In this document: piece after piece, positions 31,103 to 33,302 of the stretch | How positions within the stretch are numbered: the first letter of the stretch is position 1 | Layout: every line of letters begins with the position of its first letter | Assembly: GCA_902613595.1 (NCBI GenBank) | Contig: CACMHY010000001.1 | Span: forward strand, 186,001-250,000 | Direction: 5' to 3' | Origin: an uncultured Bacteroidota bacterium | GTDB taxonomy: Bacteria > Bacteroidota > Bacteroidia > Flavobacteriales > Flavobacteriaceae | Length of the DNA: 64,000 bases | Translations under genes and position numbers: made by a program | Notes under the pieces: generated by a model | Told to the model about the DNA's origin: nothing | Seen by the model: only the letters and a program-made list of their open reading frames with translations | Database searches by the model: none

Positions 31103-31900
31103 TTAGAAATTCCATTGACGAGTTACATCTAATTTTTCTTCAGCATCAAGGACATGCTTTGGTATAACTTTCAAAAATGATGGGTGTTGCTCAATTGCAT
31201 ACTCTATTTGTTCCTTTATATTCTCCAAACTATCATTTTCATAATCTATATCAAGCGGATTCTTAATTATCATTGACTGTAAAATTCCTCTTTTTTTAAT
31301 CATTAAACCTTTTTTATCAAACGATCTTCTAAATCCGTCTATCACTATAGGAATAACAATTGGTTTAAAATGTTTAATTAGATGAGCAGTTCCCTTCCTT
31401 ACTGGCTTAAATGGTTTTGTAGTTCCTTGGGGAAATGTAATAACCCACCCATCGTCCAATGCAACGCCTATATTAGATATATCACTCATTTTAACTTGTC
31501 TATTAATCTCAACACCATTCTCACGCCAAGTTCTCTCGATTGAAACTGAACCGGCATATGCAAGAATTCTTGGTAAAATTCCTGCTTTCATAGTCTCCCT
31601 AGCTGCGACGTAATATATATTTAGTTTTGGTTTCCATAAATACCCAACATTTTTTATGCTATCTATTCTTCCACTTAGACTTGCATTAAATACATGAAGC
31701 ATAGCTACTACATCCGCAAAATAGGTTTGATGATTTGAAATAAAGAGTACATTTTTATCAGGTAGATTTTTTACAATATCTGATCCTTCAATTTTTAATT
31801 TATTAAATCCCCTGTAGCGACGATGGGTAATAAAGCCCATATATCTAATCAACCATTTCTTTAATATCAAGTAATGACCAAAAGGATTTTTTTTAAACAT
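31103..31900 (-). CDS. 1-acyl-glycerol-3-phosphate acyltransferase-like protein
   Basis: PlsC-fold membrane-associated acyltransferase of 265 residues. Motif I is ISNHQTYFADVVAML (about 53-67), where five residues separate His from Asp in place of the usual four. Motif III is FPQGTTKPF (about 154) in place of F-P-E-G-T-R. Motif II/IV FKPIVIPIVIDGFRR is normal. These variations suggest a family branch with different acyl acceptor, such as an aminolipid or ornithine lipid. The start at 31900 is 12 bases from a -7-element transcription start. Confidence 0.85.
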   Translation of the reverse strand: MFKKNPFGHYLILKKWLIRYMGFITHRRYRGFNKLKIEGSDIVKNLPDKNVLFISNHQTYFADVVAMLHVFNASLSGRIDSIKNVGYLWKPKLNIYYVAARETMKAGILPRILAYAGSVSIERTWRENGVEINRQVKMSDISNIGVALDDGWVITFPQGTTKPFKPVRKGTAHLIKHFKPIVIPIVIDGFRRSFDKKGLMIKKRGILQSMIIKNPLDIDYENDSLENIKEQIEYAIEQHPSFLKVIPKHVLDAEEKLDVTRQWNF

Positions 31901-31930: not shown

Positions 31931-32557
31931 TTAATTAATGCTATTAGAAGCTAAAAAAAACTTAAATTCACTCAGAATCATTGCACTTGCCCCCCAAATT
32001 AAATACTTTTTAAACTCAAAGCATGGGACCTCTCTACCTTTCATCAGTCCACACAAAAGATTAGTATATTTTATTTTTAAATTAAAGATTTCTGAAATAG
32101 GGAGTTCAATAATTTTAGCTACTTAATTCAATTCTGGATAAAATCGTGGAGTGAAATTCACATATGTTAAAAATGGAAATACTATAAAATTACTTGGCGG
32201 TATATATAGTGGGGTAAATTTTGTCAAATTCTTTTTTGAAATCAGTTTAACTCCCAATTCTTCATAGAATTCTCTCAAAGCAGTATGTCGTAAGTTTTTA
32301 TCCTGATTATCTAATTTACCCCCAGGATAACTGATTTCTCCTGAATGAAAACTGATATAATCTGATCTCTTAATTAAAACAACATGCATCTTGTCATTTT
32401 TTGGATAACAAAAAATTAATACAGAAGCTTTTTTTGGATTATTTTTAATGATAATTATTTTTCGACTAACAGGAGATAACATGAATTGTGCTTTTTTACC
32501 AGGTAAGTTAGAGTCACCTGTTTTTGAAAAAAATTTGTTGAAATTTTTATAATTCAT
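31931..32557 (-). pseudogene. CoA pyrophosphatase-type Nudix hydrolase with in-frame stop
   Basis: Hydrolase family that cleaves CoA to 4'-phosphopantetheine and 3',5'-ADP. Start ATG at 32557 gives MNYKNFNKFFSKTGDSNLPG, the usual N-terminus. The signature VLIKRSDYISFHSGEISYPGGKL and Nudix box ending REFYEELGV (about 95-103) are intact. After residue 144 (PELN) a TAA at 32123-32125 stops translation. The same frame continues without a break for 63 more codons: VAKIIELPISEIFN...VPCFEF...YLIWGASAMILSEF, the expected C-terminal domain. One base (GAA to TAA) explains it. The frame would give 208 residues, the family length. Confidence 0.85.
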
Positions 32558-33302
32558 GAAGAAAATAAAAACACTCATATATATATTCACTTTTCAATTG
32601 ACAATGACTAATTGTAATTTCAACAACAATGACAAAAACTCCTCTGCAATGGGCATAAAAAAAACCCAGAAAGATTCGAAAAAAAAAATTTCAGATAAAA
32701 CAAACATTATTAAAGAAATTGACAAAGTAGATTCAATTGACCATGAAAAAAAAATAATACTAGATGATAAAAATGCTATACCATTTTTTTTTAATTACGG
32801 CAAGGAAAATCTGGAAGATAAAGTCCGTATTTCAACACGATTTGGAAATATTGATTTACAACTTTTTAATAATACACCATACCACCGCGCAAACTTTATT
32901 TATTTAACAAAAATGAAATACTTTAATAAAACAACCTTTCATAGAGTTGTTCCTGATTTTATAATTCAAGGTGGAAACTCTGATAGATATGAAACAGCTA
33001 AAAAAAGAAGTCATATAGGGAAATATCTTCTTCCACCTGATACCAAGAAGGGGTATAAGCATCATAGAGGTGTAATTTCCATGCCAAGTAGTGAAATCGA
33101 AAACCCCCACAAACTTGCCTCACCTTATGAATTTTTCATCGTTCAGAAAAGTCCAGGTGCTTATCACCTAGATGGAAATTACACTGTGTTTGGAAAAGTT
33201 ATAAAAGGAATGGATGTTGTTGACAAAATTAACAAGCAAAAAACAGATAATAGAGAAACTCCTTTGACAAATGTTTTCATGGAAGTTTCAATTCTAAAGT
33301 AA
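32556..33302 (+). CDS. Cyclophilin-type prolyl isomerase, exported
   Basis: Speeds up prolyl bond rotation in periplasmic proteins. The leader MKKIKTLIYIFTFQLTMTNC may be a lipoprotein signal with a weak lipobox (MTNC), followed by a lysine-rich linker to about residue 85. The cyclophilin domain follows: VRISTRFGNIDLQLFNNTPYHRANFIYL (about 92) and FHRVVPDFIIQGG (about 129-141) with the catalytic arginine. HLDGNYTVFGKVIKGMDVVDKI is close to the C-terminus. The start codon overlaps that of the divergent Nudix gene. Confidence 0.9.
   Translation: MKKIKTLIYIFTFQLTMTNCNFNNNDKNSSAMGIKKTQKDSKKKISDKTNIIKEIDKVDSIDHEKKIILDDKNAIPFFFNYGKENLEDKVRISTRFGNIDLQLFNNTPYHRANFIYLTKMKYFNKTTFHRVVPDFIIQGGNSDRYETAKKRSHIGKYLLPPDTKKGYKHHRGVISMPSSEIENPHKLASPYEFFIVQKSPGAYHLDGNYTVFGKVIKGMDVVDKINKQKTDNRETPLTNVFMEVSILK

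Follow-up and report, generated by a model that had tools for sequence, protein, structure and literature searches.

A CoA-type Nudix gene interrupted by a single in-frame stop codon, very probably a young pseudogene, in a clade where the gene is broken by different lesions

A gene for a CoA-type Nudix hydrolase, located in a 64,000-nucleotide stretch of DNA from an uncultured member of the Flavobacteriaceae (the window), is interrupted by a single in-frame TAA; the same gene is broken by other lesions in three sister species that form one clade with it, the outgroups carry intact copies, and its dN/dS is raised. The gene is very probably a recently inactivated, CoA-pyrophosphatase-like gene (a young pseudogene), which came under relaxed constraint in this clade and was lost there by separate lesions. 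The proposed course of events is that the need for the enzyme would have relaxed in the ancestor of the four-species clade, and that separate lesions would then have disabled the gene: a nonsense change in the genome of the window (G000), a +1 insertion in G016, and larger deletions in G018 and G029. The copy in the window would represent an early stage of this loss. The window is part of contig C1 of G000, a draft genome of 24 contigs that is 85.3% complete, and the features discussed below are as follows (window coordinates).

31931–32557, minus strand: CoA-type Nudix gene, broken (from translation)
32123–32557, minus strand: proximal Nudix part, 144 codons plus the premature TAA, with the Nudix box inside
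32123–32125, minus strand: premature TAA; all 27 full-length relatives of the genus have Glu here
31934–32122, minus strand: distal 63 open codons, predicted to supply strands and the final helix to this Nudix fold
31931–31933, minus strand: original terminal stop codon of the Nudix gene
32132–32133, minus strand: site of one extra base in G016 (its own frameshift), 7 bases from the window's TAA in the alignment
32242–32520, minus strand: stretch of about 279 bases missing from the G029 remnant, whole Nudix box included (from blastn blocks)
31103–31900, minus strand: acyltransferase gene (PF01553), intact, downstream of the Nudix gene; synteny anchor and tree gene
32556–33302, plus strand: cyclophilin-type peptidyl-prolyl isomerase gene (PF00160), intact, divergent; its start codon overlaps that of the Nudix gene
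32555–32558, no strand: CATG palindrome containing both start codons, common to 28 of 29 genus loci

The interrupted gene and its predicted product

Translated from the ATG at 32557, the gene consists of 144 codons, the TAA, 63 stop-free codons and a terminal TAA, just as the original prediction had it; the accompanying claim that TAA stands in place of GAA is borne out at the level of the residue, Glu, in the alignment of full-length relatives. The proximal part matches the Pfam NUDIX family (PF00293, E 6.7e-10) and contains the motif ..PGGK..REFYEELG.., which we take to be the Nudix box, and by tblastn the 63 codons after the stop align with the relatives' C-terminal part. The best NCBIfam match is the CoA pyrophosphatase PRK10707 (presumably E. 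coli NudL), to which the proximal part aligns at profile positions 25–105 of 192 with 44.4 bits, and the distal part weakly at positions 132–184 with 16.5 bits (E 0.0049). These scores, and the 70.9 bits of the intact relative L005, all miss the curated cut-off of 134 bits, so the gene is CoA-type by resemblance and not a NudL equivalog; the intact gene codes for a housekeeping enzyme with a putative role in CoA breakdown.

An AlphaFold model of L005 (mean pLDDT 89.5) has, past the stop position, a strand at 152–157, a short helix, further strands and a last helix at 193–211, and all 50 of the PDB matches listed for this fold reach residue 203 of the model or beyond. Judged by this model, the lost piece is part of a single predicted Nudix fold and no separate domain; of the original description of the distal codons as the normal C-terminal domain, the match to the relatives' C-terminal part therefore stands and the separate domain does not. 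Because part of the fold is missing, the 144-residue product would be without Nudix activity. The best fold matches of L005 are NUDT7 (Z 18.8, 173 residues aligned, rmsd 2.7), NUDT11 (Z 17.7, 178, 3.9) and the Deinococcus CoA pyrophosphatase 1NQZ (Z 16.5, 150, 4.1).

At 49 columns that are near-invariant among the 27 relatives, residues 74, 114 and 157 (G000 numbering) are altered in both G000 and its nearest species, G016. Confined to G000 are a Ser for Gly at 69, a Ser for Thr at 191 and, at 145, the stop; the one change confined to G016 (whose row was masked at 145, so that the X there is no substitution) is a Glu for Gly at 102, inside the Nudix box; each genome has thus altered an invariant glycine of its own. 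A search of G000 (85.3% complete) with the proximal part found no second copy of the gene, and two other NUDIX matches are present in the genome. The plasmid search returned 27 records, every one below 60% identity.

Lesions and their distribution in the genus

The Nudix gene sits between a divergent cyclophilin gene and a same-strand acyltransferase gene, and loci were counted in the genus genomes that have the acyltransferase as anchor (32 of 38). Full-length Nudix genes, with no stop in the match, are found at 27 of these 32 loci; four are broken (G000, G016, G018 and G029), and one, in G005, runs into a contig end, with a stop-free distal part. Outside the broken four, 27 of 28 loci are accordingly full-length. 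In alignment with close relatives, named as a check in the original prediction, the window's stop is absent from all 27 full-length genes, and the three other broken copies are broken in other ways. In a midpoint-rooted tree of the acyltransferase, the four broken genomes cluster with a support of 100/100, and none of 500 label shuffles left them as clustered.

Six genomes without the acyltransferase anchor stand outside all locus counts: G010, G014, G021 and G035, in which the Nudix gene region found no match; G015, with a 42-base match only; and G060. The last has, at the start of contig C12 (L128:1-1001), a Nudix piece and a cyclophilin gene on one strand, unlike the other placed loci; the piece is stop-free across reference residues 25–167, and the odd join is probably an assembly artefact. 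Two further observations concern single genomes: the acyltransferase match of G009 (C27:3900-4694) contains one TAA, and a contig end of G019 (C94:1-375) bears a partial Nudix match, the second in that genome (43% identity to the window's proximal part), for which a paralogue or a foreign contig are the options.

The lesions differ among the four genomes. G016 shares 195 kb of collinear sequence with G000 (94.7% nucleotide identity). Read in the ancestral frame, its copy is free of the window's stop; it carries a +1 insertion 7 bases upstream of that site, and its protein likewise ends after 144 residues, at a TGA of its own. By a rough estimate, a spacing of 7 bases between the two lesions has a chance of about 3%. 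The fragments of G018 and G029 lie between intact cyclophilin and acyltransferase genes and have stops in all three forward frames of each; the limits of their deletions, taken from blastn block edges, are approximate. In G018 some 460 bases (~31971–32431) are replaced by about 104 unaligned bases, and in G029 46 distal codons remain open, with 43% identity. A one-base gap in the distal part is common to G018 and G029, which makes a single inactivation in their ancestor likely on alignment grounds and gives at least three inactivations in the clade. A hidden earlier inactivation in the ancestor of the clade, for example by a promoter change, may also have occurred.

The start codons of the Nudix and cyclophilin genes overlap in CATG, with the cyclophilin in frame and open, at 28 of the 29 genus loci that allowed both genes to be placed, the exception being G017 with AATG; the remnants of G018 and G029 retain CATG at this place. 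Because the starts overlap, the leader of each gene must fall within the coding region of the other, and we infer that neighbour leader DNA inside the Nudix remnant may slow the erosion of the dead gene's 5' end.

Selection and the age of the loss

The comparison of G000 with G016 gives the Nudix ORF a dN/dS of 0.57, the highest of 183 ORFs, measured on the mechanical call of 155 codons, which includes 11 codons ahead of the ATG. Among the 167 ORFs of at least 120 aa the median is 0.11 and the 99th percentile 0.39; the proximal 142 codons of the Nudix gene alone give 0.45, which one other ORF among the 167 exceeds, and the distal 63 codons give 0.29 by counting. The second-highest value of the 183 (0.51) belongs to a 221-aa ORF beyond the window (205209–205874 on the window's scale; G000:C1 391209–391874), which is stop-free relative to G016.

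A codon model fitted to 206 codon columns from 10 genomes, with the acyltransferase tree supplying the topology, gives an omega of 0.34 on the G000 and G016 tips against 0.078 elsewhere (p = 5e-5). The joint tip value was used, as separate omegas for the two genomes are not identifiable (that of G000 lies at a bound of 7.4, on a branch of 0.012). For the proximal part the omega on the two tips is 0.39 (p = 1e-4); for the distal part it is 0.24 against a background of 0.088 (p = 0.16, from 63 codons). On the stem of the pair omega is not raised, and the fitted length of this stem, 5 to 12, indicates saturation. A lesion set against intact orthologues (the TAA at a Glu codon, 27 of 32 loci full-length) and relaxed selection, two marks of a pseudogene, are both present.

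An omega of 1 across the whole tip time of G000 and G016 is rejected (p = 0.005), and hence the gene was constrained during part of that time; a count-based neutrality test on the whole gene gives P 0.02 at kappa 1 and at least 0.07 from kappa 2 on, and so is compatible with neutrality once transition bias is allowed for. A loss part-way along the branch fits both results. With a two-rate mixture of background and neutral evolution, about 0.29 of the tip time is fitted as unconstrained. In non-coding DNA the two genomes differ by 108 indels in 13,271 aligned bases, a rate at which the 627 bases of the Nudix gene would be expected to hold 5.1; one was seen (P 0.037). The mixture fit and the low indel count both suggest that the losses came well after G000 and G016 parted. 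From the number of substitutions that separates the two genomes, one branch is expected to gain about 0.64 nonsense changes; a young loss with one lesion is therefore nothing unusual, and the original argument that a decayed gene normally has frameshifts too does not hold here.

Alternative explanations and comparison with known systems

Of the three options that had been offered for the lone stop (a very recent loss, readthrough of the codon, an erroneous base), loss is the one supported. The break in G000 does look young, but it is not isolated, since three relatives carry broken copies too; readthrough is disfavoured. That the base is wrong, through an assembly or sequencing error, and the gene in G000 intact, is very unlikely, although G000 is an incomplete draft in 24 contigs. 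The error load was gauged on 183 ORFs from each genome (called mechanically, at least 80 aa, by greedy choice) over the 195 kb common to G000 and G016. A tblastn scan, which is blind to genes broken in both genomes and left the Nudix gene itself unflagged, flagged 6 of 183 ORFs in one direction and 8 of 183 in the other, all with stops confined to the outermost codons (first 20 or last 3) or with at most 22 residues missing at an end. Affine alignment counts 19 coding indels, 16 of them not a multiple of three: two pairs that compensate each other, the indel in the Nudix gene, and 11 that lie no more than about 53 bases from an ORF end. The megablast alignment, with 79 coding gaps (3 a multiple of three), disagrees with this count, a surplus attributed to greedy gap splitting, and the affine count was used. 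Besides the Nudix lesion, no other interior, one-sided, uncompensated break was found among the 183 ORFs from each side, which speaks against a general error load and suggests a low error rate. Further against a base error, the same gene is broken by other lesions in three sister species, and its dN/dS ranks first regardless of the stop.

We also considered that the 144-residue protein may be a selected functional form on which G000 and G016 converged. The two lesions lie 7 bases apart and both proteins end at residue number 144, and the codon model rejects an omega of 1 across their entire tip time; the fragment could then have a selected role, perhaps in binding instead of hydrolysis, reached by independent truncation in two sister species. 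Against this, constraint on the proximal part does not exceed that on the distal one (dN/dS 0.45 and 0.29; omega 0.39 and 0.24), the missing part includes a strand and the last helix of the predicted fold, invariant glycines are altered, and the Nudix box is gone in G018 and G029. A selected short form, a binding protein included, is therefore very unlikely; the near-coincidence of the two lesions is the one odd point of the main reading and keeps its probability from vanishing.

Ribosomal readthrough of the TAA, yielding a low level of full-length enzyme, is highly improbable. The distal frame is open and family-like, with a dN/dS of 0.29 by counting and an omega of 0.24 that does not differ significantly from background, and in-frame stops with dN/dS below 1 are reported to be widespread in bacteria (Belinky et al. 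2021; PMC7918605). The stop itself is not conserved, being absent from the 27 full-length relatives and, in the ancestral frame, from G016, and readthrough would not cure the frameshift of this nearest relative. TAA also terminates 125 of the 183 ORFs called and is the commonest terminator, which makes general recoding unlikely. On these two grounds, a stop not common to relatives and the frequency of TAA as ORF terminator, readthrough and recoding were rejected.

A split into two coupled cistrons with re-initiation, whose products would assemble, has next to no chance and was rejected: G016 has a TTG in the distal frame just upstream of its TGA, and the distal frame of G000 offers TTG (codon 23) and ATG (codon 27), but the start arrangement is not common to the two species because the matching TTG of G000 precedes the TAA (the first start-like codon after the TAA comes 22 codons on), and neither half is intact in G018 or G029.

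The probable young pseudogene is a case of ordinary gene decay, and a small, clear one, in which a single clade displays successive stages in the loss of a housekeeping gene: a stop, a frameshift and two deletion remnants, with intact outgroups. The clade's lesions and the lack of a second copy in the incomplete G000 suggest that the clade does without a CoA-type Nudix hydrolase. More generally, where one genome has a lone in-frame stop, its sister species should be checked before readthrough is invoked. Compared with the in-frame stops for which Belinky et al. (2021; PMC7918605) propose readthrough, the Nudix gene is alike in having an in-frame stop and an open, family-like distal part, and unlike them in that the stop is unshared and that dN/dS ranks first of 183. 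Among enzymes, the relatives' intact copies resemble the CoA pyrophosphatase type of Nudix hydrolase (Deinococcus radiodurans 1NQZ/1NQY, human NUDT7, Arabidopsis NUDT11, E. coli NudL/PRK10707), their profile matches being 9nxm (Nudix hydrolase 11), NUDT7 and 1nqy; unlike all of these, the window copy is truncated. Young bacterial pseudogenes that arise from a nonsense change are a known general kind. The Nudix gene resembles them in its single stop, its open frame, its intact orthologues, its raised dN/dS and the further decay seen in relatives, and is unlike them in the repeated losses, by different lesions, within one small clade of a genus whose other loci are full-length in 27 of 28 cases.
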